The notes: generated from the letters alone by a model not told the origin. A DNA stretch of 46,027 bases from Myxococcota bacterium (GCA_023150875.1 JAKLKC010000053.1:1-46027), one strand, 5' to 3'. Shown: positions 1,570 through 20,278, numbered from the stretch's first letter. Translations and numbers: made by a program.

Positions 1570-1854
1570 TCACTCCAACACGACGTCCTCGGGCTCGTCG
1601 GGGACGGCCGGGGAGTTGCCCAGCAGCTCGGTCCGGGCCCGGCAGGCGGCGCAGAGGTGGTAGACGCGGACCGTGTCCCGCCGGGGGTCGATCAGCCCGG
1701 CGACGGCGGCCAGGAGGCGGGCCCGGTGGGACTCGGGGAAGGGGCCCTCGAACACGCTCTTCTGCACCCGGGGGAGCCACTCCTTCAGGCGACGCTGGAG
1801 CCGCGCCCGTCGCCGGTCCTTGACGATGTCGTAGGCCACCACCAGGAAGTCCAT
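1570..1854 (-). CDS. cas2: CRISPR-associated endoribonuclease/adaptation protein Cas2
   Basis: 94 residues, the usual Cas2 length. It begins MDFLVVAYDIV, the beta-1 strand with the conserved Asp (D9) of the ferredoxin-like fold, followed by an arginine-rich helix and the typical QKSVFEGPF strand. Cas2 dimers bridge two Cas1 dimers to form the spacer integrase. The gene starts 4 bp after the cas1 stop codon, so the two are translationally linked. A short acidic C-terminal tail (EPEDVVLE) is present. The identification is secure from sequence and context. Confidence 0.95.
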   Translation of the reverse strand: MDFLVVAYDIVKDRRRARLQRRLKEWLPRVQKSVFEGPFPESHRARLLAAVAGLIDPRRDTVRVYHLCAACRARTELLGNSPAVPDEPEDVVLE

Positions 1855-1858
1855 GGGG

Positions 1859-3064
1859 TCATCCGAGCCGCGATGGGCGGTACACTGGGTCCGCCCCCTG
1901 GAAGAGGCGGGCCAGCCGGCGCGCCTGGCGCTCCAAGACCCAGCCGAGCCGAGGACTCTCCCCCGAGTCCACCTCCCGCACCCCTCTCCGCAGCTCGCGC
2001 TGGAACTCGTGGAGGAAGAGGCGGCGGCCCCCGTCCTGGAGGTACACGGCCCGGGGCGGGGAGGGGGCGCCCGGGGCCGTCAGGTTCACCGGGACCGGCC
2101 GGGGATCCTGTTCCGCCGTATGGGGGTCACCCTGCCCGGCGGGCTCACCCCCAGCCGCCTCGACCTCCGAGTCCGCCGGGTCATCGGGCGGTTCGTCGAG
2201 ATCCGGGCCGTCCGGCTCCCGAGGGGCGGGCCCCGGGACCGCCAGGTGCGGACGCCTCCAGGAGGGATCCCCGAAGTCCTCGGGGGAGAGCTGCCGGCGG
2301 TTGACCAGCCGGAGGGTCATGCGGTCCACCACCCCCGCTCGGAACTCCTCCATGAGGTCCAGGGCCAGGGCCGGCTGGCCACGGATGGGCGCGTGGAGGG
2401 AGCCCACCCCCGGCAGGAGGCCCGTCGCGTACAGGGCCGACTCCACCCTCGTGGCGAGGAGCGTGTATCCGAAGGAGAGACAGGCGTTCACGGGGTCCCG
2501 GGGGGGGCGCCGATTGCGCCCGCTCCAACGGAAGTGGGGGTGGGTGATCAGACGGTCGAAGACCCCGTAGTAGATCGCCGCGGCCTGGCCCTCCAACCCC
2601 CGGGCCTGGTCGAGGCTCTCGGCGCCGGGAATGCGGCGCGACAGGGCGCGGAGCTGGCATGCCGCCTCTCCGATGGCCGGATCCTGGCGGTTGCGCTGGA
2701 CGTCGGTGAGCAGGCGCCACTGGGAGTCGACCTTGCCGGCCACGATCCACCGGGCCAGCGACAACGCGCGCTCCGGGTCCGCCAGCCAGCGCACCTGCTC
2801 CACCTGGAGGGCCCCCGTGGGCGAGCGGGGACCCTCCAGGCGGCCCCGGTATCGCCCGTCCGCGGTCAGGAAGACCACCGGGATCCCCCGGGCCAGGGCC
2901 GCCACCCGCGCCGATGCGCGGACCTCGGCCGCGCCGGAGATCTGGATCTCGTCCACCTCCCCGGCCCTGATCTCCCGCACCGGCTGGCCCCGGCGCTCGA
3001 CGACCCACTGCGAGCGGCGAAAGGACAGGGCCAGCGCCTCCCCCGCGAGGGCGAGCAGGGCCAC
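1859..3064 (-). CDS. cas1: CRISPR-associated integrase Cas1
   Basis: 401 residues; the Cas1 spacer integrase. The three metal-ligand positions are visible: E158 (GLEGQAAAIYY), H224 (GSLHAP) and D236/E239 (ALDLMEEFR). The N-terminal beta domain and C-terminal helical domain are both complete. It is longer than the usual 300-340 residues because of a Pro/Glu/Asp-rich insertion at about residues 267-337, between the DF motif and the final LFLHEFQREL helix. The reverse transcriptase and primase are separate upstream genes rather than fused to it. The primase gene ends 3 bp before this ATG and cas2 starts 4 bp after the stop. Confidence 0.95.
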   Translation of the reverse strand: MALLALAGEALALSFRRSQWVVERRGQPVREIRAGEVDEIQISGAAEVRASARVAALARGIPVVFLTADGRYRGRLEGPRSPTGALQVEQVRWLADPERALSLARWIVAGKVDSQWRLLTDVQRNRQDPAIGEAACQLRALSRRIPGAESLDQARGLEGQAAAIYYGVFDRLITHPHFRWSGRNRRPPRDPVNACLSFGYTLLATRVESALYATGLLPGVGSLHAPIRGQPALALDLMEEFRAGVVDRMTLRLVNRRQLSPEDFGDPSWRRPHLAVPGPAPREPDGPDLDEPPDDPADSEVEAAGGEPAGQGDPHTAEQDPRPVPVNLTAPGAPSPPRAVYLQDGGRRLFLHEFQRELRRGVREVDSGESPRLGWVLERQARRLARLFQGADPVYRPSRLG

Positions 3065-3067
3065 GCC

Positions 3068-4684
3068 TCAGGCCTCCTCTCCAACGCTCCCCGGCCCCCT
3101 GGGGGCGGAGGCGGCGACCTCCGACGTGTCCACCAGGCGAACCGGCCCCTCCCCGTCCCGGGCGTGGAGCAGCGGGGTGGCGTAGGTGAGCAGGACGGGC
3201 CCGAAGTCGCAGTCGCACCCCACCCGGTCGGCCACCCCAGGCACCCGCTGGCGGATCCGGAGACACGACATGGGGCTCCCCCGCAGCCGCCGGACGAGGC
3301 GCCAGGGCTCGGGGATCTCCGGCAGGTGGCGGAACACGTAGTTGAAGGCTCGCGGGCCTTCCCTCGTGTGCCCGATGGTGTGCTTCAGGACCATCGCCTC
3401 GTCCTGTCCCATCGCATCCCCCGCCAGGCCCCGGGCGACCAGCCGACGGAGCACGGCGCAGCCGGCCAGGAGCGGCGCGATCTGCGGGTCCACCCCGTAG
3501 TCCGCCTCCGTCCAGGGGGGAGGCGCAGGGGGCGCGATCCGGGTCCGGCGGACGGGGGTGTCGCCGGGCTCTCCCTCCGGACCTCCGTCGTCCGGCCCGG
3601 CCGGGCGCCGAGCCAGGAGGGTCGCCGTCGCCTCCGACAGGCGGTCGGCGGACACGGTCTCCAACTCGCGGAGGGCCACGGCGGGGTTGGGGTGGGCCGT
3701 GCCGTCCTGGCGCAGGATCCAAGCGCGCCTGCCGCTCACCCGGTGGATGCCCAGGGGGAGCTTGACCAGGTTGCCCAGCCCCCCGGGCTCCAGGCGGTCC
3801 TGCTTGGGGAAGAACTCCATGGACACGTCGGGCTCCCCGGGACGCGCGGCGCGCCGCAGGGCCGCGCCGAAGGCTCGGACGGTGGCGGCCTGGACCGGAC
3901 GGGTCAAGAAGATCCACAGGTGCCGCCCCTTGTGGCCGCTGTCCTCCAACAGGAAGGGCAGCCCGAGCTGGGCGAGGGTGCCGGCCAGGGAGCGGGCGGC
4001 GGCCTCCACCCTCGATCGGAGCGCCGCCACCGCCTCCCCGTCCCCAGCGGTCCGTGCGAGGGCGTCCCCCCTCGCGTCCAGGTCGACGACGGCGAAGCGC
4101 GCGGCGCCGTCGGAGCGTAGGACGTAGGAGCCGAGGGTGAGCCTGCCCTCCAGGTGGACACGGACGAGGGCCTCCGACAGAGGCTCCCGCACCGGCGAGT
4201 AGCCCCCCTGACCCCGCTCCGGGTCGTACCACTGCCGGGCGTGGACGTCCTCGCGGCCGGCGAACAGGTGGAGGAAGCGGGTCACGTCCGCCTCCTCGAA
4301 GCGGATGGCGGGAGCGTCGGGCGGTGGCGGGAAGGCGAGGGAAGCCGCACCGCCGGTGAGGACGTCCGGTCCCGGTCCCCCGTCGATGGCCGCCCCGCGG
4401 CGCAGGCACTCGGCGGCCAGGCGCGCGTCTCCCCGTTCGCGGTGGAGGGCGGCGAGCCGGCGCCAGGTGGGTGCGTCCCGGGGATCCCGCTCCAGGAGGA
4501 TCTGGCAACCCCGGACGGCTTCCCCCACCATGCCGCCCTCCTCGCACTCCTCGATCCACGCACGAACCTCGTCGGGGGGAGCGGTGGCCAGGAGGGCCGC
4601 CCGGGCGCGGAGGTCCTCGCGCCCGGCGGAGCGGTCCGCGGCGGGCGCCCGGGTGGGATCCTCGGGGCGGGTGGGTACGGACAT
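3068..4684 (-). CDS. CRISPR-associated primase-polymerase (AEP/TOTE-type)
   Basis: 538 residues from the ATG at 4684, which has a GGAG about 12 nt upstream. Residues about 25-95 look like TPR helices (DAPTWRRLAALHRERGDARLAAECLRR). The archaeo-eukaryotic primase core follows: the catalytic DxD is D201/D203 (VVDLDARG), the nucleotide-binding His is H255 (GRHLWIF), and LVKLPLGIHR is the third motif. The C-terminus carries a Cys cluster (SCLRIR then CDCDF), probably zinc-binding. This is the pattern of CAPP enzymes, primase-polymerases found beside Cas1 in type III loci and proposed to fill in or process prespacers. It sits between the reverse transcriptase and cas1 genes. The role is inferred from the family. 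Confidence 0.88.
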   Translation of the reverse strand: MSVPTRPEDPTRAPAADRSAGREDLRARAALLATAPPDEVRAWIEECEEGGMVGEAVRGCQILLERDPRDAPTWRRLAALHRERGDARLAAECLRRGAAIDGGPGPDVLTGGAASLAFPPPPDAPAIRFEEADVTRFLHLFAGREDVHARQWYDPERGQGGYSPVREPLSEALVRVHLEGRLTLGSYVLRSDGAARFAVVDLDARGDALARTAGDGEAVAALRSRVEAAARSLAGTLAQLGLPFLLEDSGHKGRHLWIFLTRPVQAATVRAFGAALRRAARPGEPDVSMEFFPKQDRLEPGGLGNLVKLPLGIHRVSGRRAWILRQDGTAHPNPAVALRELETVSADRLSEATATLLARRPAGPDDGGPEGEPGDTPVRRTRIAPPAPPPWTEADYGVDPQIAPLLAGCAVLRRLVARGLAGDAMGQDEAMVLKHTIGHTREGPRAFNYVFRHLPEIPEPWRLVRRLRGSPMSCLRIRQRVPGVADRVGCDCDFGPVLLTYATPLLHARDGEGPVRLVDTSEVAASAPRGPGSVGEEA

Positions 4685-4746
4685 GGCGTTGCGGGCTCCG
4701 GAGAGTGGAGGCCGATCAACGCCGGCCGCCGCCGCGCCTGACGGGC

Positions 4747-5745
4747 TCAGGGGGGCCGAGGGAGCCAGTCGGGCCACCACGCCGGGAGGGGCCAGGCCGC
4801 GCTCGATGCCCTCGCGGGGGAGCCTCCTCCCCCCGTGGGGATGGGGACCCGCTCCAGGCGGAACCCACCCGGTTCGGGGCGGATCCGAAGCGGGACGCCC
4901 AGGACCACCAGGGGCCCGCCGCGGTCCCCCGCGCGCCGGACCTCGGTCTTGTGCGGGGCGAGGCGCAGGCGCGCGTCCCCGAGGTGTCCGTCGAGCCAGC
5001 GGAGGAGCACGTCGGCGCAGCCCGGGTGGTCTCCCACCAGGAGGAAGTCGTCGGCGTAGCGGAGCCACCCCGCGGGCGGGCGGCCGTCGGGCCCCCTCTC
5101 CCGCTCCATCGGCCCGTCGACCCAGCCGTGGAGGTAGAGGTTGGCCAGCAGCGGCGAGAGGGGGGCCCCCTGGGGGATCCCTCGTCCGGGCGTCCGGGGA
5201 TCCGTCCACGCGCGCAGCCAGGCGGCGTTCAGGCGGAGCCACAGGGGATCGGGGCAGAGGGCGCCGGCCGCGGAGAGAAGCCGCCGGTGCTCCAGCCGGT
5301 CGAACAGGGCGTGGACGTCCCCCTTGACCACCTCCAGCCAGGGGCGGACGCCGATCCGGGCGAGGAGGGAGCGGACCCCGGACGTGGGGCCGCGGCCGGG
5401 GCGGAAGCCGTGGACGTGGGGCAGGAGCAGGGGCTCCGCGGCGGAGGAGAGCACGTGGTGGACCGCGGCCTGGACGAGGCGGTCGGCGACGCTGGGGATC
5501 CCGAGCGCCCGCGCGCCCCCCGAGGGCTTCTCGATGGTGACGTGGCGCAGGGGCCGGGGCTGCCAGCGACCGCCTCGCACCTGGTCCAGAAGCCAGGCTC
5601 GGCCGCCGGGGTGGGCGAAGACGGCGAACTCGTCGTCTCGCCGGAGCCCCGCTCCGCCCCGGGCCACCATGCGCTCCCAGGCGAGGCGGAAGACCTCTTC
5701 GGTGAGCAGCGAGGCCAGGTCCGGCAGGCGGCCCTCCAGGGCCAC
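4747..5745 (-). CDS. CRISPR-associated reverse transcriptase (group II intron-like)
   Basis: About 332 residues from a GTG at 5745. The N-terminus is uncertain because the frame stays open far upstream in this GC-rich DNA. Reverse transcriptase motifs occur in order: RT0/1 region (VFRLAWERMVARGG), RT2 (IEKPSGGARALGIPSVADRLVQ, split here only for reading), RT3/4 around KGDVHALFD, GIPQGAPLSPLLANL at 189-203, and the catalytic YADD at 230-233. There is no maturase or endonuclease domain after the thumb, so this is not a whole group II intron protein. With primase, cas1 and cas2 downstream, it probably allows spacers to be taken from RNA. The gap to the primase gene is 62 bp. Confidence 0.88.
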   Translation of the reverse strand: MALEGRLPDLASLLTEEVFRLAWERMVARGGAGLRRDDEFAVFAHPGGRAWLLDQVRGGRWQPRPLRHVTIEKPSGGARALGIPSVADRLVQAAVHHVLSSAAEPLLLPHVHGFRPGRGPTSGVRSLLARIGVRPWLEVVKGDVHALFDRLEHRRLLSAAGALCPDPLWLRLNAAWLRAWTDPRTPGRGIPQGAPLSPLLANLYLHGWVDGPMERERGPDGRPPAGWLRYADDFLLVGDHPGCADVLLRWLDGHLGDARLRLAPHKTEVRRAGDRGGPLVVLGVPLRIRPEPGGFRLERVPIPTGGGGSPARASSAAWPLPAWWPDWLPRPP

Positions 5746-6366
5746 GGACAGGGTCGCCGAGGCGGCGGCGGCCGAGGGAGGTCGGCGGGGCGGCGGGTTG
5801 GACGTCGGCAAGGGTGGGCCCGGGGGGCGGGGAGGGGACCGGGGCCGGCCCCTCGGGACCGGCGCCGCTGGACGCCCAGCGCCCTGAACGCCGGGGGGAC
5901 CCGGCGCTGACGAGGCCGGGCCCCGCCGGGGAGGCCGCCGCGCCCCCGCGCCGCAGGCTGGAGGGACCGGGGAAGGCTCCGGCCACCCCCTGGGAAGAAA
6001 TCGGAGCGATCGGCCTCTTCCCCCCTTCCACTGGCGGACGGTCTCGGGATACGGTGGGCGTGGCCGTGGGGACACGGCGTTTGTGACGACTCCGATGGAT
6101 CCGGGGAGATGAGGCGATGACGGCAGGGACAGGTCGCGTAGCGCCCGGGGCGGGCGCGTCTGGGACGAGTCCAAGGGCAGGTTTGGGGAGGGGAGGGGCC
6201 CCCGCGGCGGGGCGCCGCGCCGGTGGCCCGCCGCGCTCGCCCGCGACCCGCCGCCCGCCGAGGTAGGGGGATCCTCGTGGGGCCTCCCCGTGGGGGGGCC
6301 CCTCCGCTCCCGCGCCCGAGGCGGCGCACCCGGCGCCCTCGCGGGGCTCCGGGGAAGGGGACCGAC
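5746..6366. promoter_or_regulatory. divergent intergenic region between adaptation and effector operons
   Basis: About 620 bp with no gene I can support; it must hold promoters for the minus-strand adaptation genes and the plus-strand cmr operon. No convincing TTGACA/TATAAT pair is visible. The best plus-strand candidate is a weak TACGGT at about 6050 with a poor -35. The stretch 6190-6260 is dense in GCC/GGC and could fold stably. I see no direct repeats of CRISPR type. The region may also encode part of a longer N-terminus of the reverse transcriptase (5746-5890 codes a Pro/Arg-rich stretch in that frame). Confidence 0.5.
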
Positions 6367-7647
6367 GTGCCGAACGAGTCCATGACATTGAAGCTGGAGA
6401 CCACCGTGCCGGCCTTCGCCGGATCGGCAGCCACGCGGCAGGTCGACCCCTGGTTCGGGGTTCGCCCGAGCGCCATCCGGGGTGGGCTGCGGTGGTGGTT
6501 CCGGGCCGCGGCGGCGGGCGTGCTCCGTCCCGAGGGCGCGCCTCCCCGGGAGGCGGCCCTGAAGGAGGTCGTCGCCCGGATCCGGAGGGCCGAGACGGAG
6601 CTGTTCGGGGCGACGGAGAGGGCGTCCCGAGTGGTGGTCGGCCCGCCCCGGGGCGGCTCGATGCGGGAGGTCCCGCCCTTCGACCCCCGGAGCAAGGGGG
6701 GTGTGCGGTACCTGGGATTCGGGCTGTGGGACGACAAGGGAGCCAGAGCTCCCGAAGCGTGGTGGAGCCCCCGCCAGGACCCCCTGGTCGTCCCCATGCG
6801 GCTCCGCGACGGCGCGCCCGGGGGGGCGAGGGAGGCGCTTGCGGCGTCGATCTGGCTCTGGGCACACTACGGGGGCCTGGGCGCCAAGACGCGGCGGGGG
6901 TTCGGCAGCCTCCACCTGAGGGAGGACAGCGAACTCCCGTGGAGCGGACCGCCCCTGGGACGGGCGTCCGGCGTCTCGGAGCTCATGAAGCGCCTCCTCG
7001 CAGGGCTGGACGTGGCCAGCGAGGCGCTGCGGCGCTACCTGAGGAACGCGACGGACTGGGACGGCCGGGCCGGCAAGGCGCCCCACCCGCGGATCCGCTC
7101 CATCGACGGCATCGACTCCCTGCGGGCCCTCCCCCTGGTGTACCAGGACTGGACGTCGGCCTTGGACCACGCCGGGCGCCTCTACCGGGCGTTCCGGAGC
7201 ACCGTGGAGCGCCAGCACCTGGGGATGGCGCCCCTGCCGGACTTCTTCGCGGTGAAGGGCTCCCTCACCGGCGGGGGGGCGCCCCGCACCGTGGACCGCG
7301 CCGCGTTCGGGCTCCCCCTGCCGTTCTACTTCCGCTCCCTGGGCGGGGCCAAGACCAGGTTCGAGCCCGACGAGCAGGACGGCGACCGGCTGGCGTCCCC
7401 CCTCCTCTTCCGGGTCCACCCCGTCCGGAGGCAGGGGCCCGGCGGCGGCTGGGAGGATCGCCTGGCGGTGGTGCTGGTCAACCTGGCCCAGCGCGACCCC
7501 GGGGACGCGCTGCTGGGGTGCAGGCTCCGGCAGGACCGGCCCCCCAACCGGGGGATCGCCGCCCCGGGCGGCACCATCATCGAGCAGTTCATCGCCTGGG
7601 CCAGGGACCACGCGACCCAGGTGGGCGCGCCGGGGGGGGAACGATGA
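6367..7647 (+). CDS. cmr1: type III-B CRISPR RAMP protein Cmr1
   Basis: 426 residues from GTG 6367, preceded by GGGGAAGGGG; ATG 6382 is an alternative start. The N-terminal strand TLKLETTVPAFAG followed by the basic motif SAIRGGLRWWFRA is the Cmr1 signature. The glycine-rich GLGAKTRRGFGSL at about residues 175-190 is the RAMP G-loop. Cmr1 caps the head of the Cmr complex, near the 3' end of the crRNA, with Cmr6. It is the first gene of a tightly packed operon; its stop overlaps the cmr2 start by 4 bp (ATGA). Confidence 0.93.
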   Translation: MPNESMTLKLETTVPAFAGSAATRQVDPWFGVRPSAIRGGLRWWFRAAAAGVLRPEGAPPREAALKEVVARIRRAETELFGATERASRVVVGPPRGGSMREVPPFDPRSKGGVRYLGFGLWDDKGARAPEAWWSPRQDPLVVPMRLRDGAPGGAREALAASIWLWAHYGGLGAKTRRGFGSLHLREDSELPWSGPPLGRASGVSELMKRLLAGLDVASEALRRYLRNATDWDGRAGKAPHPRIRSIDGIDSLRALPLVYQDWTSALDHAGRLYRAFRSTVERQHLGMAPLPDFFAVKGSLTGGGAPRTVDRAAFGLPLPFYFRSLGGAKTRFEPDEQDGDRLASPLLFRVHPVRRQGPGGGWEDRLAVVLVNLAQRDPGDALLGCRLRQDRPPNRGIAAPGGTIIEQFIAWARDHATQVGAPGGER

Positions 7648-10469
7648 GCGGGACCCTGGACAGGGCCTACGCGCTCCGGGCGTGGGCGTTGCTGCTGCCC
7701 TGGGACCGGGAGCCCGGGGACGAGGGGGCGTTCGCCGCGGTCCCCCGGGAAGTGGTGAAGCGTCTCGGCCTCCCGGAAGAGCTGGACCCCTCCGAGAGGG
7801 CCCTCGTGTGCGCCTGCGCCATCGACGCCTACGCGGCGCAGATCGGCGCGGCGGCGGGGCCGGCGGCTGAGCCCGGCGGCGGGTCGCGGAGCCTGCCGGC
7901 GCTGAGGCACCCCCTCTCGGCCACGAGCCTGAGGGGAGGCACGCGGAGCGGCCCCGCGGACGGCGCCGCCGCGTACATGGACTTCATGGGATCGCTGGGG
8001 GTGGCGGCCCGGGGCGACGGGCAGGCGGACTCCGAGTGGTATCGGGACCTGTGGTTCCAGCTCGCGGAGGCCATGTCCTCGGGCCCGGCGGCAATGGTCC
8101 CGGGGAGCCGGCGGATCCCGGACTTCCCGGTGTGGGCCCACAGGACCCTGACGGCGGCCCTGGTGGGGGCGCGGTACTCCGGCGCGGTCCGGGCCGACGG
8201 CGGAGGCGGCGGGGCGGCCCTGCTCTACCTGCACCTCGGCCCCGTCCAGGACTTCATCGCCGCGGCGCGGCGCACCCACGACCTGTGGGTGGGCAGCTTC
8301 ACGGTGAGCTACCTGGCGTTCCGGATGGTGAGGGAGATCGTGGAGAGGGCGGGCCCCGACGCCGTGGTCTACCCGGACCCCACCGTCTTCCCCCTGGCGC
8401 GGTTGGAACACCGCGGGCCGGAGGACGTGGAGCCCCAGGACCGGATCCGGCCGTGCATCCCCAACAAGCTCCTGGCGGTGGTCCCGGCGGGCCGGGCGCC
8501 GGAGCTGGCCCAGGGCGCGGCAGCCCGGGCGCTGGAGACCTGGATGGGGATGGCGGAGGCTTGCCGGGCGGGGGTCTACGAGGCGCTGGCGAGGGGGAAC
8601 GGTGCTCGGGACCTGGCCGGCGCCGACGACTGGCGCGGGTTCGCCGAGCAGGTCGACGCCCACCTCGAGATCGACGCCGTCGTGCAGCCCTGGCCCGACC
8701 GGCGCGAGGACGTGGCGGCGCTGCTGGCCGGGCTCGGCGTGGAAGGCCGCGAGGGGTTGGAGGGGCTGCCCAGCGGCGTCACCGGGGACGCCTACGGAGC
8801 CCTCTTCGACACCACCCACCGCCTCCTCGTGGCGCACCGGCGGGCCGCTCCCCGCGTCCAACCCCCGGGGGACGACCGGCCCAAGTGCGACCTCTGCGGC
8901 GAGAGGGAGAGGATGGGGCCCGCGCGGAAGAGCAGGGAGTTCTGGCGCGAGCTGGGGGCGGCCCTCCAGCGGGCGGAGTCCGGCAACCAGGGTGGAGGAC
9001 CGCTCCCCGACCGCCTCTCCCTCCAGGTGGCGGACGGCGAGGGGCTCTGCGCCGTGTGCTTCACCAAGCGCCACGCCCCCCGGTACTGGTACGGTAGCAG
9101 GAAAGGGGGGCTGGGCCTGGAATGGGAGCGGCGGGACCGGGACCGCCCGTGGCTGCGGTTCCCCTCCACCGCGAGCATCGCGTCGGCCCCCCTCCGGTGG
9201 CGCCTCGCGGAGGTCCGAGACACCGTGCCCTTCCGGAAGTGGTGCTCGGCGCTCGACCGCCTCCACGCGCGGGACCTCTTGAGCTTCGACCCCCCGGGCA
9301 ACCTCGTCCCAGGCGTGGGCGAGGTCGGCCCCGGGGCGGTCTTCCCCTTCGACGGGACGTGGTGCTACGAGAGCGCCTACGACCCGGCGACCGCCTGGCG
9401 GGACCACCGGGAGGCGTCGCCGTCCGAGGCCGACGCGAAGAAGCTGGGCCCTCCGCTCCTGGCGGCGGACCGGCTCCGGCGCCAGGTCCTCGCCGACCTC
9501 GGCCCGGGCACCGGGGCGAGCCCCTACTACGCGGTCCTGGCCATGGACGTGGACCGCCTGGGGGAGTGGCTGACAGGGAGGCATCGCCGCACCCCCACCT
9601 GCGCCGAGGCGGCCACGGACCTGACCGGACCGCCGTGGGACTCGACCCCGCGCCCCCTCTTCCCCGCCCTCCACCGGGAGATCTCCCGACGGATCGCCCG
9701 CCTCGCCACGAGGGCGATCCCCGAGGCGATCGAGGGGATCGGCCTCGGGCGGGTGGTGTACTGCGGGGGCGACGACGTCCTGGCCCTCCTCCCCCTGCGG
9801 AGCGCCCTGCCGGTCGCCCAGGAGGTGCGGGACCGGGTGCGCGCCGAGGAGGGGCTCGGGGACAGGGTCGGGATCAGCGCCGGGATCGCCGTCGCCCACT
9901 TCACCCGCCCCCTCTCCCGGGCGATCCAGGAGGCCCGGGACGCCCTCCACGAGGCGAAGGAGACGAGGCGCCGGATCGGGGAGAAGGGGGAGCGGGACCG
10001 CTGGCGGGTGCGCGCGGCGGTGCGCTCGGGAGCGCCGCTGGTGGTGGACGCGCCCTTCGAGATCCCCCGCCCCCGGGGCGGGGAGCTCCGGGTGATCGAC
10101 GGGCTCCTGGACCTCCAGAGGGACATCGCCGGCGTGGCCGACGCCGCGGGCGACGCCGAGTCCATCGGCAACGTGGCCGCGGCGTACGCCCTGGAGCGGG
10201 AGGTGGGGGTCCTGGACGCACCTGGGTTGGAGGATGCCCTGATCCATCGCCTGCGGGTCCTCCTGGGTACCGACAGGACCACGGCGTCGAGGGACGATCC
10301 CTCGGTGTTGCTGGAGATCCTCCTGGCCCGCTTCCGCGCCGAGCTTCCACCGCCGCCAGGCCCGGGGAGGAGGCTGGTGGACCTGCTCCTCCTCCTGCGC
10401 TTCCTGGAGAGGGAGCGCCACGGGCTCCCGCCGTGGGGATCCGACGGAATGCCGGAGGGGAGGCGATGA
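7644..10469 (+). CDS. cmr2: type III-B Cas10/Cmr2, cyclase-competent, HD motif absent
   Basis: 941 residues, the large subunit of the Cmr complex. The first palm domain carries GPVQDFIAAARR (199-210) and DLWVGSF. Zinc-binding cysteines are C415/C418 and C469/C472. The second palm has the cyclase motif GGDD at 708-711 (YCGGDDVLALLPL), so cyclic oligoadenylate synthesis is expected upon target RNA binding. The N-terminal region keeps the RHPLS segment, but where other Cmr2 proteins have an HD nuclease motif (LLHDPP) this one reads LLLPWDREPGD. Single-stranded DNase activity is therefore probably lost. The start overlaps the cmr1 stop and the stop overlaps the cmr3 start. Confidence 0.95.
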   Translation: MSGTLDRAYALRAWALLLPWDREPGDEGAFAAVPREVVKRLGLPEELDPSERALVCACAIDAYAAQIGAAAGPAAEPGGGSRSLPALRHPLSATSLRGGTRSGPADGAAAYMDFMGSLGVAARGDGQADSEWYRDLWFQLAEAMSSGPAAMVPGSRRIPDFPVWAHRTLTAALVGARYSGAVRADGGGGGAALLYLHLGPVQDFIAAARRTHDLWVGSFTVSYLAFRMVREIVERAGPDAVVYPDPTVFPLARLEHRGPEDVEPQDRIRPCIPNKLLAVVPAGRAPELAQGAAARALETWMGMAEACRAGVYEALARGNGARDLAGADDWRGFAEQVDAHLEIDAVVQPWPDRREDVAALLAGLGVEGREGLEGLPSGVTGDAYGALFDTTHRLLVAHRRAAPRVQPPGDDRPKCDLCGERERMGPARKSREFWRELGAALQRAESGNQGGGPLPDRLSLQVADGEGLCAVCFTKRHAPRYWYGSRKGGLGLEWERRDRDRPWLRFPSTASIASAPLRWRLAEVRDTVPFRKWCSALDRLHARDLLSFDPPGNLVPGVGEVGPGAVFPFDGTWCYESAYDPATAWRDHREASPSEADAKKLGPPLLAADRLRRQVLADLGPGTGASPYYAVLAMDVDRLGEWLTGRHRRTPTCAEAATDLTGPPWDSTPRPLFPALHREISRRIARLATRAIPEAIEGIGLGRVVYCGGDDVLALLPLRSALPVAQEVRDRVRAEEGLGDRVGISAGIAVAHFTRPLSRAIQEARDALHEAKETRRRIGEKGERDRWRVRAAVRSGAPLVVDAPFEIPRPRGGELRVIDGLLDLQRDIAGVADAAGDAESIGNVAAAYALEREVGVLDAPGLEDALIHRLRVLLGTDRTTASRDDPSVLLEILLARFRAELPPPPGPGRRLVDLLLLLRFLERERHGLPPWGSDGMPEGRR

Positions 10470-11746
10470 GCGCCGTGTCGACCGTGTTCTTCGAGCCGCT
10501 GGACGTGCTGTTCTTCCGCGACCACCGCCCCTTCGACGCGGGCTTGCACTCCTTCGGGCGGTCCACCTTCCCCCAGCCCAGCGTGATCCGGGGGGCGCTG
10601 CGGACCGCTCTCTTCCTGGCTTCCGGTGCGCGCTTCGACAGCAACGAGCCGGGGTTCGGGGCCCCGGAGCCTTGGGTCACCCCGGTCCTGGGCGGCCGGA
10701 AGTGCCCGGGAAGCCTCTCCGTCCGGGGCCCCTTCCTGGCTCGGGGAGGGGCGGGGGGCGCCGGGCTCCAGCCCCTCCTGGCGATGCCGGCGGACCTCGA
10801 CGTCCGGGAGCTGGACCCGCCGCCCGGTCGGGCCGGTGGCGGGTCCCCGGCCGCGGCGCGGGAGCGGGAGCTGGTCCGTTCCAATCCGTTGGACATGGGG
10901 GCCCTACCGGCCCCGAGGCCGGTCCGCCTGCACCGCTGGAGGACGGGCGACGAGGCGCCGCTGGCGGAGTGGGGCGGGTCCCTGCCCTGGTCCCCGGTGG
11001 CCGCCGGAAAGGGGGGAGGCGCGGCCTACCTCGCCGGGGAGGGGATCGGCTGGTACCTGGGGGGCGAGGACGAGCGGCGGACCGTTACCCCGGGGGAGGG
11101 CTGGGTGGTCCGGGAGGGGGAGGCGCTCGAGTACGAGGAGCGGATCGGGATCCAGCGGGACGCGGCCACGCTGGTCGTCCAGGAGGGGATGCTCTACGCC
11201 ACCCGGTGCCTGAGCTTCCGGCGCGGCTTCGGCCTGGCCGCGGAGGTGGACTGGGAGGCCACCGCGAGCGCCGGAGGCGTGGGGTTGGAAGGGGTCGAAG
11301 CGGCGCGGCGGCGCCTCCACGAGCTGAGCGGGAGCACGATCTCCCTGGGAGGGAAGGGCCACCGGGCGAGGGTCCACGTCCGGGAGGGGGGGGTGGTCCC
11401 CCGGGGCCTCGGAGCGGGTGAGGCCGGCTCTCGGCTCCGGGCCTGGCTCCTTACCCCCACGCCCTTCAAGACCGGGGAGGGGGGCGTGCCCGAGGTCCTC
11501 GTCCCGGGGAGGGGGGCGGGGCTGGTGTCCATCGCCGCGGGCCGGCCGGTGGCGACGGGCGGGTTCGACATGGCCGGGGGTCGTCCCCGCCCCCTACGGC
11601 CCGCCCTGCCCGCGGGTTCGGTGCTCCACTTCGATTGGACGGAGGGTGGAAACATGGAGGGGTGGTGGACGGAGGCCCTCGCGAGCGAGGACCGGCGCAC
11701 GGGGTTTGGAGTCGCGCTGATGGGCGCTTGGAAGGAGTCGAGATGA
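10466..11746 (+). CDS. cmr3: type III-B CRISPR RAMP protein Cmr3
   Basis: 426 residues. The N-terminus FFEPLDVLFFRDHRPFDAG and the following QPSVIRGALRTALF are characteristic of Cmr3, which binds the 5' tag of the crRNA and contacts Cas10. The C-terminal half has the RAMP strand pattern and a glycine-rich segment near GFDMAGGRPRPLRPALPAGS. It overlaps cmr2 by 4 bp at its start and cmr4 by 4 bp at its end, with AGGCGATGA and AGATGA junctions. The assignment is confident from both motif and gene order. Confidence 0.92.
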   Translation: MSAVSTVFFEPLDVLFFRDHRPFDAGLHSFGRSTFPQPSVIRGALRTALFLASGARFDSNEPGFGAPEPWVTPVLGGRKCPGSLSVRGPFLARGGAGGAGLQPLLAMPADLDVRELDPPPGRAGGGSPAAARERELVRSNPLDMGALPAPRPVRLHRWRTGDEAPLAEWGGSLPWSPVAAGKGGGAAYLAGEGIGWYLGGEDERRTVTPGEGWVVREGEALEYEERIGIQRDAATLVVQEGMLYATRCLSFRRGFGLAAEVDWEATASAGGVGLEGVEAARRRLHELSGSTISLGGKGHRARVHVREGGVVPRGLGAGEAGSRLRAWLLTPTPFKTGEGGVPEVLVPGRGAGLVSIAAGRPVATGGFDMAGGRPRPLRPALPAGSVLHFDWTEGGNMEGWWTEALASEDRRTGFGVALMGAWKESR

Positions 11747-12780
11747 GCGAGGAGTCGAACGCCGGAGGCGGCCGGATCCGGGAGCCCGGGATGCTGGTCT
11801 TCTACTACACCGAGACACCCCTCCACGCCGGGAGCGGCACGGGGATCGGTGCCATCGACCTGCCCATCCAGCGGGAGCGGATGAGCGGCCTCCCCATCGT
11901 CCAGGGCTCGGGGATCAAGGGGGCGTGGCGGGAGGCCATGAGGCAGCGGGTGGGGCGGGGTGCGGCGCGGGACTCGAAGGCCGGCGACGGGAAGGGGGCC
12001 GACCTGGTGCTGTCCTGGTTCGGGCCCGAGCCCCCGCGGGTGGGGGACGGGGAGGGCAAGACGGGGGAGGCCGCGCCCACCTTCGCCGGTTGCGTCTCCC
12101 TCGGGGACGCCCGGCTGCTGCTGCTGGCGGTGAGGACCCTCAAGGGGGGGTGGGCGTGGGTCACCTGCCCGCTGATCCTGGAGAGGCTGGTTCGGGACCT
12201 GGAGATCCTGGGTATGGAGCTCCCCGGTTGGGTCTCCCCGGGGGCGGATCTCGCGGGGGCGTGGGTCTCGAAGGGGGCGAAGAGCGCGGTGGTGTCCGAG
12301 GGGCGGCTGGTCATCGAGGACTTCGACTACGCGGCGGAGGAGCGGGAGGAGGTGGACCGGCTCGGGGAGTTCCTGCGGGAACGTGCCTTCCCGGACACGC
12401 CGAGCTACGCCCCCTTCCGGGACCGGATCCCCGGGCAGCTCGCGGTGCTGCCGGACGAGGAGCTGCTGTTCCTGGCGCACCACGCGACCGAGGTGGTGGC
12501 GAGGATCAGGATGGACGGCGGCACCGGGACGGTGGCGAAGGGGGCGCTCTGGTCCGAGGAGAGCATCCCCGCCGAGTCCTTCCTTTGGTCCCTGGGCACC
12601 TTCACCGGCGACCGGCGGCCCGGCGAGGAGGCGGGGGCGGGAGCGATGCGGAGGGACTTCGTGGCCGCCGCCCGGGAGTGCGCTCGGATCCGCCTGGGCG
12701 GGGACCGCACCGTGGGCCGGGGCGTGGTCGGCGTCCGCGTGTACGCGCCCGGCGCGGAGACAGAAGGGAGCCAGCCGTGA
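11743..12780 (+). CDS. cmr4: type III-B backbone RNase Cmr4
   Basis: 345 residues. Cmr4 is the repeated backbone subunit that cuts target RNA every six nucleotides. The family motif HAGSGTGIGAIDLPIQRER is intact; D39 aligns with the catalytic Asp26 of Pyrococcus Cmr4, so RNA cleavage should be retained. SGSGIKG-like RAMP basic residues follow (QGSGIKGAWREAM). The C-terminal GGDRTVGRGVVGVRV is the glycine-rich loop. It overlaps its neighbours by 4 bp on both sides, and the cmr5 GTG is embedded in its stop (GTGA). Confidence 0.95.
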   Translation: MSEESNAGGGRIREPGMLVFYYTETPLHAGSGTGIGAIDLPIQRERMSGLPIVQGSGIKGAWREAMRQRVGRGAARDSKAGDGKGADLVLSWFGPEPPRVGDGEGKTGEAAPTFAGCVSLGDARLLLLAVRTLKGGWAWVTCPLILERLVRDLEILGMELPGWVSPGADLAGAWVSKGAKSAVVSEGRLVIEDFDYAAEEREEVDRLGEFLRERAFPDTPSYAPFRDRIPGQLAVLPDEELLFLAHHATEVVARIRMDGGTGTVAKGALWSEESIPAESFLWSLGTFTGDRRPGEEAGAGAMRRDFVAAARECARIRLGGDRTVGRGVVGVRVYAPGAETEGSQP

Positions 12781-13229
12781 CCGAGGAGAAGAGGCGTGAC
12801 GGGACCGCGACGACCGGCCTGGCCCAGGGCGGCACCGTGGCGGGCCAGATCGAGCAGCGGAGGGCGGCCTGGGCCTGGGCGAGGGTCGAGGAGGTCGCCG
12901 CCTGGGACAAGGCGAGCAAGGACAGGGAGGAGTACGCCGGCCTGGCCCTGAAGCTCCCCGCCCTGCTCCAGACCAGCGGGCTGGGTCAGACCATGGCGCT
13001 GCTGTTCGCCAAGGGGGGCGGTGGGAAGGAGGGCTCGGGAAACCGGGCCTACCGCACGATGTATCTCCAACTTCAAGCCTGGCTCCGGGCACGGATGCGG
13101 TGGCGCGAGGACCAGGAGGCGATGGAGCGCATCGTCGCCTGCTCCCCGGAGGCATACCGGCAGGCGACGCGGGAGGTCGCCGCCGTCTCCGAGTGGATCA
13201 AGCGGTTCGCCAAGGGGCGGATCGAGTGA
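12777..13229 (+). CDS. cmr5: type III-B small subunit Cmr5
   Basis: 150 residues from GTG 12777, which overlaps the cmr4 stop and has GAAGGGAG just upstream. It is mostly helical. The family pattern is visible: a central LPALLQTSGLGQTMALLFAKG, then AYRTMYLQLQAWL, and a C-terminal helix ending EWIKRFAKGRIE. Cmr5 lines the inner filament facing the target RNA. The N-terminal 20 residues are a variable extension. A 49-bp gap to the cmr6 ATG is the only sizeable spacing in the operon. Confidence 0.9.
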   Translation: MTEEKRRDGTATTGLAQGGTVAGQIEQRRAAWAWARVEEVAAWDKASKDREEYAGLALKLPALLQTSGLGQTMALLFAKGGGGKEGSGNRAYRTMYLQLQAWLRARMRWREDQEAMERIVACSPEAYRQATREVAAVSEWIKRFAKGRIE

Positions 13230-13278
13230 GCCCCCGCGGGGCGTGACGGAGCCCCGCGCGGCTCGCCGAAGGGAAGAC

Positions 13279-14223
13279 ATGGGCAACGGCCGAGACACGT
13301 TTCGACCCGGAGGTACGGGGGGGGGAGGAGGCCGGCCGGGGGGCGCGGATCGGTGGCCTCCCCGCGACCGCGACGGAGGGAGCCGCGACGGAGGGGACGG
13401 CGAGATGTGCCTGCCGCTGCCCGGAGACACGGCGCGGCGGGTGCCGGCCCGGCCGAGCCAGGGAGACAACATCGGGCTCTGGCTCGACAAGTTCGTGCGA
13501 CGGCGGAGCCCCTCGCCCGAGGCCCTCCGCAAGGGCGACGCCTGGGCCATCAAGTCCGAATACCGGGACCGGGCGCTGGCCCCCTTCTGGAGGGAGATCA
13601 CCGGGGCGGCGCGGGCCTGGAGGTCCGAGGCGGGGGTCCAGGGGCTCGCCCGGTCGGGCGAGGCGGTGAGGGCCCTCCACGGCGACGGAGGCTGGCGCAC
13701 CCACGACGCGAAGGTCCACGGGCGCCTGCTGGTGGACTACGGCCGGGCGACGTCCACAGAGATGAGCCTGTCCTTCCACCCCACCTGGGGGGTGCCGAGG
13801 ATCCCCGCCAGCGGCGTGAAGGGGGCCCTCCGCGCCTACCTGGAGGAGACGGGGGAGGCCGACCCGGTCCTGGACGCGCTGTTCGGCGGGACCGAGAGGG
13901 CGGGCGCCCTGGTCTTCCACGACGCCCTGCCCCTCGGGGGGACCTTCAAGCTGGCCTTGGACGTGCTCACCCCCCACCACGGCAAGTACTACCAGGAGGG
14001 AGCCCCCCCCGGGGACTGGATGAGCCCGGTGCCCCACACCTTCCTCACCGTCGTCGATACCACCTTCCGGTTCGCCATCGGCTTGGACGAGCGCCGATTG
14101 GAAGGGATGGCTCCCAAGGTCGCCTTGGACCTGGCCGTCCAGGGCCTCAGGGAAGCGCTCGACTCCCGCGGGGTCGGCGCCAAGAGGGCCGCGGGCTACG
14201 GTCGCCTGGGGAGGATCCCGTGA
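13279..14223 (+). CDS. cmr6: type III-B CRISPR RAMP protein Cmr6
   Basis: 314 residues from ATG 13279, preceded by AAGGGAAG. After a Gly/Arg-rich N-terminal stretch (about 40 residues) the Cmr6 core appears: DNIGLWLDKFV, then the RAMP motif WGVPRIPASGVKGALRAYL, VFHDALP, the LTPHHGKYYQ segment and the terminal glycine-rich VGAKRAAGYGRLG. Cmr6 sits at the head of the complex with Cmr1. The stop codon overlaps the GTG of the downstream ATPase gene by 4 bp, which ties that gene to the Cmr operon. Confidence 0.93.
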   Translation: MGNGRDTFRPGGTGGGGGRPGGADRWPPRDRDGGSRDGGDGEMCLPLPGDTARRVPARPSQGDNIGLWLDKFVRRRSPSPEALRKGDAWAIKSEYRDRALAPFWREITGAARAWRSEAGVQGLARSGEAVRALHGDGGWRTHDAKVHGRLLVDYGRATSTEMSLSFHPTWGVPRIPASGVKGALRAYLEETGEADPVLDALFGGTERAGALVFHDALPLGGTFKLALDVLTPHHGKYYQEGAPPGDWMSPVPHTFLTVVDTTFRFAIGLDERRLEGMAPKVALDLAVQGLREALDSRGVGAKRAAGYGRLGRIP

Positions 14224-16844
14224 CGGGGAAGTACCTCGACGAGAGCCCCTACACGCCCGAAAAGGGGCCAGCCCGGGACCTCGCCCGGAGCATCGCCGAG
14301 TGGGTCGCGGACGCCGGGAGGCGCTCGTCCGACGGGGCGTGGGTCGCGGGGGTCCACGGGGACAGGGGCACGGGCAAGACGTCGCTGCTGAAGGGAGTCT
14401 TGGAAGAGCTGGAGGAGAGGGGGAGGCGAGGCGAGGGAGGGAAGCCGGGGGAGGGTGACGGGCGCGGATTGGACTCTCCGGTAGACTGGGGTCCGCCCCG
14501 GGTCGTGCTCCCCCATCCCCGGCCAAAGTCGGGGTTCGGGGCGGAGAAGGTGCAGTCCCCGCGACGCCGGGATGGCCGGGAGGCCGGGGAGCCGCCGCAG
14601 CCCGGGGCTGCGACGGGGCGCACGACGGACAGGTTCCTGGCGCCCTCCATGACCCGATCCGGCGACGGGCTCCTCTTCGTTCTGCTGGACCACCTCCATC
14701 GATTCTACGCCCGGCCTGGCGCCTCCCCGGCTTCGGGCCGGTCCGCGTCCTGGGGCGGATCCCGGCCCGAGGACTTCCTCGCGGACGGCGGGGGCGCGGA
14801 TCCCTATGCGAGGGCACGCCGCGCGGAGGCGAGGAGACACGACCTCCCCCTCTTCCTCCAGTACGCCCGGGAGGTCGCTCCTTCCCGAGACAAGCTCCCC
14901 GAATACTTCGCCGAGCAATACCAGGAGGCGGCCACGGCGACCGCCAACATCCAGAGGCGATTCGCGGAGATCCTGGACGAGATCCGCAGGCCGGGCAAGG
15001 ACGCGGTGGTCCTGTTCGTCGACGACCTGGACCTCCAACCCCAGCGGAGCCTGGAGATGTTGGAGCTCATCCACCTGTTCCTCCACCGGCCGGGCGTCGT
15101 GGTGCTCCTCGCCGCCGACCGGGACCTCCTGCTCCACAGCCTGGAGGAGGGGCTGAGGGAGAGGTGGCCGTTGGCCGCCCACTCCCAGCGAGGGTTCGCG
15201 GGGACGCCGGGCCTCGCCGCGGAGCTGATGGCCAAGTTGATCCCCCTCTGGTGGACGGTGCCGACCCCCACCCCGGCGGAGCGGGTCGCCTTCGCCTGGA
15301 GCGGCAGGGGCGGCGAAGAGGGGGGGGCTCTCCGAGTGGCATGGAAGAAGGAGCCCCTGGAGGGGCTCCTGAGCATGGCGAACGTCGCGCGCCATTCCCG
15401 GGAACTGCGGCAGGAGAGGTGGCGAGAGGGAAGCCGCCCGGAGGGGCCCGCACCGGGCGGGAAGGAAGACCCCGTCCAGAGGGAGATCCTGGAGCGCCTC
15501 CTCCCGGACACGTGGCGGGGCCTGGTGGCGTACCGGAACCGCCTCCAGTCCGTCGTGGACAGGGCAATGGCGAGCCACGGGCGTACGAGCGGAGCGGGCG
15601 AGGGGGACGCCTTCGCGGCCGTCGCCGCGGACTTGAGCCGTCGCTGGGCCGCCTTGGGGTTGGACGCGGACGGGTTGCCGTCGTGGGCGGCCCTCCTCCT
15701 CGCCGTGGACGTGCGCTGGCCCGAGCTCCAGGTCTGGAGCGTCGCCGACCGGGACCCCAGGGCGCTTCGGGAGTTCCTCATCGGGCTCGGCGAGATCGTC
15801 GACAAGGGGGAGGTCCTGGGCGCTGGCGCGGGGCCGCAGGGCCCGGGGACGATCCCCCTGCTGGACCGGGTCGGCCCCCCGTTCCTGGACGGGATGCGCC
15901 TCCACTACGCCCGGGTCGCCCTCGCCTGGCTCGGGAAGCAGTGGAGCCAGGTGTGGAGTCCCGGCTCCATCGGCGCCTTCGCGAGGCTCCGGTGGCTGGT
16001 GGTCAGCCTGAACCAGGACGCCCTCGGCCTCACGCGGGCCCGGAGGTCCGGCGTGGGCGGGCCGGCCGAGGAAGCGGAGATGGAGGCCTGGCACGTGGAC
16101 CTCCAGGCCCACGCCCTCCTGCCCGGCCCCCGGGCGGACGCGGTGGGGCTCCGCGCCGCCCGCGCCGACGCGCGGCGTCTCATCGAGGAGAGGGGGGTCC
16201 GCTCCTTCGACGGCGCCCTCCAGGTCTTCGCCAAGGCCCAGATCCCCCTGGCCGCGTGGCTCGGCTGGTACCTGAGACACGTGGGGCTTGCCGCGGTGTA
16301 CAACGAGTGGCAGGGGGTCTGGACCCCCTTCCTCATCCCCCCCGAGGTGGGCCTGGTGCGGGCCCCGGGGACAGGCGTGTTCCACCGGCTCCGCATCCAC
16401 GAGCCCGAGGATGTGCCGGAGGGTCCCGGCGACCAGGCGGTGGTCATCGTGGACCTGAGCGGGAAGGCCACCCCCGCGCAGCTCCGGGAGTTCTGGACCC
16501 GCGGCCCTGGGGGGGAGGAACAGGTGCGCGCCGGGCACCGCTACCTGCTCCAGGTGCCTGAGGGGACAGGGTCACGGGTGGAGGCCGACGACGCCGTCCC
16601 CATCCTCGAGGACGTGATGGAGCTGCTCCGCGTGCTCCGCGACTCCGAGGGGGTGCGCGCCTTCCACTTGGGCTTCGCAGGGCCCACCGCCCTGGCGTTC
16701 CTGCTGGGCCGGCACCTGAACGCCCAGGGGGTGGTCCACCTGTACGAGCTCCTGAAGAAGGGCGAGCAGACGCGCTACGAGTACGTCTTCGACCTGGACG
16801 GGGAGGACGGGGGGGGAGAGGGCGGTGCCGAGGGCGAACGCTGA
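14220..16844 (+). CDS. RdrA-like P-loop ATPase with C-terminal SAVED domain
   Basis: 874 residues from GTG 14220, with GGGGAGGA 6 nt upstream. Walker A is GDRGTGKTS (47-55, K53); Walker B is VVLFVDDLDL with D268/D269, followed by HRPGVVVLLAADRDLLL, as in KAP-family ATPases and RdrA of RADAR. Residues about 65-140 form a Pro/Arg/Gly-rich insertion. A helical middle region runs to about 650. The last ~200 residues look like SAVED: AAWLGWYLRH (678-687), VVIVDLSGK (741-749), FHLGFAGPTALAFLLGRHLN (815-834) and HLYELL (840-845). SAVED domains bind cyclic oligonucleotides in CBASS and in type III CRISPR (CalpL). I infer an ATPase gated by the product of Cas10. The deaminase gene overlaps its end by 20 bp. 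Confidence 0.85.
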   Translation: MTGKYLDESPYTPEKGPARDLARSIAEWVADAGRRSSDGAWVAGVHGDRGTGKTSLLKGVLEELEERGRRGEGGKPGEGDGRGLDSPVDWGPPRVVLPHPRPKSGFGAEKVQSPRRRDGREAGEPPQPGAATGRTTDRFLAPSMTRSGDGLLFVLLDHLHRFYARPGASPASGRSASWGGSRPEDFLADGGGADPYARARRAEARRHDLPLFLQYAREVAPSRDKLPEYFAEQYQEAATATANIQRRFAEILDEIRRPGKDAVVLFVDDLDLQPQRSLEMLELIHLFLHRPGVVVLLAADRDLLLHSLEEGLRERWPLAAHSQRGFAGTPGLAAELMAKLIPLWWTVPTPTPAERVAFAWSGRGGEEGGALRVAWKKEPLEGLLSMANVARHSRELRQERWREGSRPEGPAPGGKEDPVQREILERLLPDTWRGLVAYRNRLQSVVDRAMASHGRTSGAGEGDAFAAVAADLSRRWAALGLDADGLPSWAALLLAVDVRWPELQVWSVADRDPRALREFLIGLGEIVDKGEVLGAGAGPQGPGTIPLLDRVGPPFLDGMRLHYARVALAWLGKQWSQVWSPGSIGAFARLRWLVVSLNQDALGLTRARRSGVGGPAEEAEMEAWHVDLQAHALLPGPRADAVGLRAARADARRLIEERGVRSFDGALQVFAKAQIPLAAWLGWYLRHVGLAAVYNEWQGVWTPFLIPPEVGLVRAPGTGVFHRLRIHEPEDVPEGPGDQAVVIVDLSGKATPAQLREFWTRGPGGEEQVRAGHRYLLQVPEGTGSRVEADDAVPILEDVMELLRVLRDSEGVRAFHLGFAGPTALAFLLGRHLNAQGVVHLYELLKKGEQTRYEYVFDLDGEDGGGEGGAEGER

Positions 16845-19165: not shown

Positions 19166-20278
19166 ATGCCCTCCGACTCCTCCCTCACCCTCTTCCTCTG
19201 CGGCGACGTCATGGTCGGGCGAGGGGTGGACCAGGTGCTCCCCCATCCATCGGAGCCGGAGTTGCGGGAGGAGTTCGTCCGGGACGCCAGGGACTACGTG
19301 CTCCTCGCGGAGCGGCGCTCCGGGCCCGTTCCGCGGGGCGTGCCCCCGGCGTGGCCCTGGGGGGAGGCCCTGGCGGAGATCGAGAGGGCGGGGGCGGTGG
19401 CGCGGGTGGCGAACCTGGAGACCAGCGTCACCCGCGGCGGCGACTTCTGGCCCGGAAAGGGGATCCACTACCGGATGAGCCCCGGGAACGTGGGGTGCCT
19501 GGGGGCGGCGGGGCTGGACGTGTGCGTGCTGGCCAACAACCACGTCATGGACTTCGGGGTCCCCGGACTGCTGGAGACCCTGGAAACCCTGGAGCGGCAC
19601 GGGATCCGGACCGCGGGCGCCGGCCGCGACCTCGCCTCCGCCCGCCGGCCCGCGGCGGTGGAGATCGGGGGCGGGAGGTTGCTGGTGTTCGGGATCGGCG
19701 GTTGGGACAGCGGGATCCCCCCCGGGTGGGCCGCCACGCCGGAGCGGCCCGGGGTGGACTGGGTGCTGGCGTTCACCGACGACGCCGCCGACGAGGTGGC
19801 GGAGCGGGTGCGGCGGGTGAAGCGGCCCGGGGACCTGGCCGTGGTCTCCGTCCACTGGGGCTCCAACTGGGGGTACGCGGTGCCCCCCGAGCACACCCGC
19901 TTCGCCCACCGTCTGGTGGAGGGCGGGGTGGACCTGGTCCACGGGCACTCCTCCCACCACCCCCGCCCGGTGGAGGTGTACCGGGAGCGGCTCATCCTCT
20001 ACGGGTGCGGCGACTTCATCAACGATTACGAGGGTATAGAGGGCTACGGTGCGTTCCGGGGCGACCTGGTGCTGGCGTGGTTCCCGGTGCTGCAGAGGAA
20101 CACCGGGCGCCTCCTGGGGCTGGAGATGAGCCCCCTGCGGACCCGGGGGATGAGGCTTCACCGGGCGTCGGAGCCGGAGGGGCGCTGGCTCCGGGAAGTG
20201 CTGAGCTTCGCGTGCGCCCCGTTGGGCTCCTCCGTGGAGCTCGGCCCCGAGGGTAGACTCCGGCTCGCTTGGACCTGA
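19166..20278 (+). CDS. CapA-family (PGA_cap) metallophosphatase-like protein
   Basis: 370 residues from ATG 19166; a GTG a few codons upstream is possible. Family motifs: LFLCGDVMVGRG near the N-terminus, NLETSVT (conserved Asn-Leu-Glu), VLANNHVMDFG, VVSVHWGSNW, VHGHSSHHPRPVE and LILYGCGDFINDYEG. These are the metal and substrate ligands of the CapA/PgsA calcineurin-like fold used in poly-glutamate capsule synthesis. No signal peptide or membrane segment is obvious, so an intracellular phosphatase or ligase-partner role is possible. It follows the defence operon by 76 bp on the same strand but is separated by two hairpins, so I do not count it as a defence gene. Confidence 0.8.
   Translation: MPSDSSLTLFLCGDVMVGRGVDQVLPHPSEPELREEFVRDARDYVLLAERRSGPVPRGVPPAWPWGEALAEIERAGAVARVANLETSVTRGGDFWPGKGIHYRMSPGNVGCLGAAGLDVCVLANNHVMDFGVPGLLETLETLERHGIRTAGAGRDLASARRPAAVEIGGGRLLVFGIGGWDSGIPPGWAATPERPGVDWVLAFTDDAADEVAERVRRVKRPGDLAVVSVHWGSNWGYAVPPEHTRFAHRLVEGGVDLVHGHSSHHPRPVEVYRERLILYGCGDFINDYEGIEGYGAFRGDLVLAWFPVLQRNTGRLLGLEMSPLRTRGMRLHRASEPEGRWLREVLSFACAPLGSSVELGPEGRLRLAWT

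Follow-up and report, generated by a model that had tools for sequence, protein, structure and literature searches.

What does a type III-B CRISPR (clustered regularly interspaced short palindromic repeats) complex act through when its Cas10 keeps the cyclase motif and has no recognizable HD nuclease motif? The question is raised by cas10/cmr2 in a Myxococcota bacterium, on a stretch of 46,027 nucleotides (GCA_023150875.1 JAKLKC010000053.1:1-46027; here, the window) that makes up an entire contig of a 6.9 Mb genome. The first-pass annotation, made from this DNA alone, had proposed that HD loss leaves the complex dependent on signaling and that this fits an attached sensor-effector pair. Our reading is that an HD-dead, cyclase-retaining type III-B complex drives a two-gene unit, a SAVED-KAP ATPase and an adenosine deaminase, through a messenger made by Cas10; on sequence and alignment, we give this a probability of about two in three.

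The Cas10 cyclase site and N-terminal domain

The features of Cas10 that bear on the question are as follows (coordinates, strand, feature).

7644..10469, +, cas10/cmr2, 941 amino acids; TIGR02577 168 bits; Pfam Cmr2_N and palm2 above cut-off; ATGA overlap with cmr1
7644..8093, +, apparently degenerate N-terminal domain of HD type, residues 1-150; the HPLS motif is retained, the catalytic residues are not
7689..7700, +, LLLP, residues 16-19, in place of the LHDPPxK motif (alignment)
7824..7826, +, D61, putative remaining HD-domain ligand, the motif-3 Asp (alignment with HD-bearing relatives)
8886..9059, +, span of two CxxC pairs (415/418 and 469/472), zinc-finger type; invariant in relatives
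9546..9554, +, Palm2 DxD, D635 and D637 (alignment with MDGD of P. furiosus Cmr2); invariant in relatives
9765..9776, +, GGDD cyclase motif, residues 708-711 (sequence and alignment)

The start of this open reading frame (ORF) is well placed because it overlaps Cmr1 by ATGA, and the protein scores 168.3 bits against TIGR02577, the NCBIfam family for type III-B Cas10/Cmr2 (cut-off, 79.4), with Pfam matches to Cmr2_N at residues 194-304 and to Cas10-Cmr2_palm2 at residues 628-776. The GGDD motif is intact, as the first-pass annotation had stated, and so is the palm DxD at 635/637; both align with solved Cmr2 structures and are kept, together with the zinc-type cysteines, in the relatives aligned. 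Both residue sets by which cyclase competence is predicted are thus present.

The N-terminus reads MSGTLDRAYALRAWALLLPWDREPGDEGAF. No Pfam family matched residues 1-150, no HD dipeptide occurs in Cas10 before residue 212, and the single His in residues 1-165 is H89, whose position is occupied by Asn in one relative; with only one His in that stretch, an HD metal site cannot be built there. Seven Cmr2 proteins of the same phylum carry an N-terminal HD motif, mostly as LHDPPxK, and where these relatives have LHDPPEK, LHDPPGK, or LHDPPNK the window protein has ALLLPWD. The alignment with HD-containing Cmr2 proteins that had been suggested as a check of the lost motif therefore supports that claim: ALLLPWD stands opposite LHDPPxK (L18-P19 fell in the H-D columns in two of three MAFFT modes), and the second motif is gone as well. 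In the six HD-bearing Cmr2s compared over the whole domain, that motif is GH or AH and is accompanied by an ADxxAxxADR-like third motif, of which the window protein has one Asp, D61. The combination of an N-terminal His-Asp pair and a second His, by which an HD-active Cas10 is recognized, is absent, and this Cas10 is predicted to have lost HD nuclease catalysis and retained the cyclase. Two other places for an HD site were considered and rejected: the HD at 212-213 (RRTHDLW) sits in Cmr2_N, outside the nuclease domain, and the stretch upstream of the annotated start is, in the Cas10 frame, out-of-frame cmr1.

Whether residues 1-150 descend from an HD domain is a separate matter. A profile of HD-bearing N-terminal domains scored 7.3 bits against the window Cas10, through the HPL-motif region, a value reached by none of 400 shuffled sequences; the same profile scored about chance against two relatives sharing ALLLP (G147 and G170) and 3.5 bits against a third (G381; 7 of 400 shuffles). 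Profile-profile comparison of the ALLLP and HD N-terminal domains aligned only the linker into Palm1. From position, length, the HPL motif, the shared linker, and the weak profile score, we suggest with moderate confidence that the ALLLP domain arose by decay of an HD domain.

The three relatives just mentioned are further Myxococcota Cas10s (G147:C171, 41% identity; G170:C211, 34%; G381:C39) with ALLLP at the same place and D61; this Asp is invariant in all four proteins and falls in the column of the third-motif Asp in the HD-bearing relatives. Since ALLLP is common to the four, its presence points to an old loss in a lineage and not to a recent mutation or a sequencing error; a second Cmr2 of G147, on contig C284, has an intact LHDPPNK.

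HD loss by itself is the ordinary, majority state: across 1113 surveyed type III loci, an HD domain was recognizable in 39% of Cas10s and a cyclase in 92% (PMC11229360). In our own classification of 31 Cmr2 loci, the HD pair is present in 7 and a long N-terminal domain without HD in 5, while 19 start directly at Cmr2_N; the tally is rough, because starts were assigned by visual inspection and several of the contigs are short. The five long HD-less proteins are the four with ALLLP and one from G019. Judged by its residues, the window Cas10 belongs to this less usual class, in which the domain is kept and the chemistry lost; its Cmr2_N begins only at residue 194, and the protein is not of the short HD-less kind from which the N-terminal domain is missing.

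HD loss alone changes little, and its value here is as a pointer to an effector. A cyclase-only Cas10 needs one, so that the same criterion, which the survey used to find new effector families (PMC11229360), directs attention to the two genes that follow cmr6.

The operon and its SAVED-KAP/deaminase pair

The plus-strand operon at 6382-19089 encodes, in order, cmr1, cas10/cmr2, cmr3, cmr4, cmr5, cmr6, the KAP-SAVED ATPase, and the adenosine deaminase. Cmr1, Cmr3, Cmr4, Cmr5, and Cmr6 are all encoded with Cas10, which identifies the locus as type III-B; most neighboring genes overlap by stop and start codons, and the SAVED-KAP start overlaps cmr6. The genes other than cas10 are the following.

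6382..7647, +, cmr1 (PADLOC Cmr1 1.6e-19; relatives)
10466..11746, +, cmr3 (position, ATGA overlap, tblastn relatives)
11743..12780, +, cmr4, RNase aspartate kept in GAIDLPIQRER (PADLOC 1e-54)
12777..13229, +, cmr5 (TIGR01881 7e-15)
13279..14223, +, cmr6 (PADLOC 4e-38)
14220..16844, +, KAP P-loop NTPase with a C-terminal SAVED sensor at 16209-16793, 874 amino acids (Pfam KAP; Pfam and NCBIfam SAVED)
16825..19089, +, RdrB-like adenosine deaminase, 754 amino acids (Pfam A_deaminase, NCBIfam RdrB, PDB RdrB 8fnw)

The attached sensor-effector pair announced in the first-pass annotation is thus present, downstream in the same operon. The SAVED-KAP protein matches Pfam KAP at 1e-10, Pfam SAVED at 3.7e-15 (56.6 bits; cut-off, 26.2), and NCBIfam SAVED at 2.4e-15, and its Walker A (GDRGTGKTS) and Walker B (FVDDLD) motifs are kept in the relative. 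The deaminase matches Pfam A_deaminase at 2e-7, NCBIfam RdrB at 4.9e-17, far below the cut-off, and PDB RdrB 8fnw at 1e-12; it has the full residue set (HxH 156/158, H495, E498, H527, and D706/D707), all invariant in the relative. Among solved structures, the deaminase is closest to RdrB (8fnw) and the ATPase to RdrA (8fnu), the two proteins of RADAR (restriction by an adenosine deaminase acting on RNA). Because their scores against the RADAR equivalogs are far below the cut-offs (RdrA, 22.7 bits, cut-off 600; RdrB, 61.7 bits, cut-off 800), we do not file the pair as RADAR. No CARF domain was matched in the deaminase; a weak CARF_ADA match falls in the deaminase part, and the single chain of CARF and deaminase that defines Cad1 is not seen. 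The SAVED-KAP/deaminase unit was not found in the type III survey (PMC11229360), one review, or the literature searched, a coverage without most subscription journals.

The same eight-gene order occurs in Myxococcota MAG.235 (G170/G282), from another family of the class. Its operon proteins and those of the window share about 30-40% pairwise identity with all catalytic motifs kept, which argues for selection on the whole unit. The MAG.235 operon adjoins cas1, cas2, and an array (L018:19212-19991, after cas1-cas2; at least 11 repeats, CCGTCCTACCCAGTGATGCCGAAAGGCGTTGAGCAC). Directly after its SAVED-KAP/deaminase genes (L018:2331-4767, G170:C211) come a SMODS CD-NTase and a SAVED-CHAT protein, parts of a cyclic-oligonucleotide-based antiphage signaling system inside a type III island. 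When the genome collection was scanned with the deaminase profile, by a pattern-based and therefore non-exhaustive method, MAG.235 alone showed this architecture; viral contigs scanned with profiles of Cas10, the deaminase, and SAVED-KAP yielded no relative, nor did plasmids searched with SAVED-KAP.

Proposed signaling route and its alternatives

Binding of target RNA turns on the palm cyclase of type III complexes, and in the window crRNA (CRISPR RNA)-guided binding of invader RNA would do the same for Cas10. SAVED domains of other effectors bind the products of such cyclases; here the product, probably a cyclic oligoadenylate (cOA), would bind the SAVED domain, upon which the KAP ATPase would dock on or activate the deaminase, as RdrA does RdrB. 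The deaminase would then turn ATP and dATP into ITP and dITP, so that phage growth is stopped by cell arrest or death, while the degenerate HD domain probably has no more than a structural role left. Several published steps resemble this route: an HD-less III-B complex makes cyclic triadenylate for NucC (PMC8682760), RdrA stimulates RdrB and its C-terminal domain has been proposed as the sensor (PMC9994260), and ATP-to-ITP conversion is the outcome both of RADAR (PMC9994260) and of CARF-fused Cad1, which carries it out on cOA (PMC11645235). In the window protein, SAVED occupies the C-terminal end, the place of the proposed RdrA sensor. The deaminase probably poisons the cellular ATP pool upon signal, and we lean, by a little, toward the more specific proposal of a CRISPR-gated RADAR, in which SAVED, reading the Cas10 messenger, would replace the RADAR-type trigger and the HD-dead III-B complex would start ATP-to-ITP conversion.

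Several observations weigh against signaling from Cas10 to the pair. On the window contig, neither a CRISPR array nor a recognizable cas6 was found. SAVED-KAP is present in only 2 of 71 genomes of the class (the window's genome and MAG.235), and the pair is absent beside the close Cas10 relative G147:C171, which has the ALLLP lesion too. AlphaFold models of Cas10 and SAVED-KAP, built from two-sequence alignments each, were too poor to use (mean predicted local distance difference test scores of 38 and 33). In MAG.235, the CD-NTase is a possible second source of the signal. This last point is also what favors the view that HD is dead and a CD-NTase or a phage cue drives the pair, which would then be a neighboring defense system sharing the operon; we consider this unlikely, as no CD-NTase lies next to the pair in the window, the SAVED-KAP start overlaps cmr6, and the gene order is kept at both loci.

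The remaining nucleases of the cell suggest another account. The Cmr4 sequence GAIDLPIQRER aligns with GVVDQPIQRER of a solved Cmr4 and keeps its aspartate, the established RNase residue of the family, so that target RNA cleavage is probably intact; another contig of the same genome carries a locus that we labeled type I-G by eye from gene content, with Cas3 and a 40-repeat array. HD might then have decayed because the complex serves chiefly as a guided RNase, the type I-G system taking care of DNA and cOA signaling being secondary. We hold this to be quite improbable: the aligned relatives retain the cyclase residues, and the SAVED sensor in the operon would be idle. The window's Cmr complex should rather be read as one whose DNA-directed arm is, by its residues, gone and whose RNA-directed and signaling arms remain. 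An inverted arrangement, in which the effector is restrained by the Cas10 product and set free when that product is lost, as happens in the mini-Cas10 system Panoptes, would not be without precedent, since inhibitory Cas10 signaling exists (PMC12657230). We regard inversion as very unlikely, because the window Cas10 belongs to a complete Cmr complex, crRNA-guided subunits included, and Cad1 and NucC, which serve complexes of this kind, are activated and not inhibited (PMC11645235, PMC8682760). That the N-terminal domain still cuts DNA through a site built of other residues is scarcely credible: the invariance of D61 in the four ALLLP proteins implies some remaining constraint on the domain, but none of the four has either the HD pair or the GH motif, and the one His in residues 1-165 is not conserved in a relative.

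Activation of the pair by Cas10 thus remains our preferred reading, and dependence on signaling, as originally proposed, holds in part: the DNA arm appears gone and the cyclase kept, whereas the Cmr4 aspartate and the type I-G locus with Cas3 probably leave the cell other means of attack. Likewise, the pair is there for HD loss to fit, but HD loss is the usual state, and the idea that it accompanies the pair as a rule was not upheld: of the four ALLLP loci, two have the pair, one lacks it (G147:C171), and one is cut by the contig end (G381).

Neighboring genes and comparison with known systems

On the other strand of the window lies an adaptation module:

1570..5754, -, cas2, cas1, type A1 CRISPR-associated primase-polymerase, and group II-type reverse transcriptase (NCBIfam)

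Within it, the primase-polymerase stands beside the reverse transcriptase at 3068-5754, next to cas1-cas2, and spacers may be taken from RNA. An extracytoplasmic function-type sigma factor gene lies downstream of cas2 (640-1467, -; NCBIfam). Directly after the deaminase is a PGA_cap (CapA-family) gene (19166-20278, +), which is probably outside the system because no PGA_cap gene was noticed among the ORFs adjoining the SAVED-KAP/deaminase genes of MAG.235. A separate 5.4 kb contig of the window's genome (C29; L144:2370-4797) encodes a TIR-SAVED protein followed directly by Cas6; the former may be a further SAVED effector served by the window Cas10, and the latter the crRNA processor missing from the window's type III system. 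Other SAVED proteins were seen elsewhere. In the HD-less type III-B locus of G019 (contig C95), an 854-amino-acid ORF (L076:6679-9240) joins a Cmr6-like RAMP, SAVED, and a nucleoside phosphorylase, a sensor-effector fused into a Cmr subunit; adjoining it (L076:3996-6623) are a DncV-like CD-NTase, a 163-amino-acid C-terminal adenosine deaminase fragment, and a TIR protein. An 813-amino-acid ORF on G282:C374 (L106:7878-10319) has a CHAT-like N-terminus by eye, a weak SAVED match, and a possible metalloprotease-like end.

Among known systems, the Cmr complex of Vibrio metoecus (VmeCmr) with NucC has the same combination of an intact cyclase, an absent HD nuclease, and a cyclic-nucleotide effector output. 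VmeCas10 and the other published HD-less III-B enzymes are of the short kind, about 600 amino acids, with the N-terminal domain wholly absent (PMC8682760), whereas the window Cas10 has 941 and keeps a degenerate domain, and the effector is SAVED-KAP with a deaminase in place of NucC. Cad1 (CARF-ADA) likewise links type III signaling to an adenosine deaminase, but the window encodes the two functions in separate proteins, with SAVED on a KAP ATPase as the sensor and a deaminase that lies closer to RdrB. RADAR (RdrA and RdrB) shares the side-by-side genes for a KAP-family ATPase and an RdrB-like deaminase; the window pair differs in scoring far below the cut-offs, in the SAVED sensor at the C-terminus of its ATPase, and in its place within a Cmr operon. 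TIR-SAVED, Lon-SAVED, and SAVED-CHAT of type III CRISPR link a SAVED sensor to Cas10 signaling, as we propose here, but the output in the window would be a KAP ATPase with a partner deaminase. If SAVED gates that ATPase, what activates RADAR might become testable with a defined small molecule.

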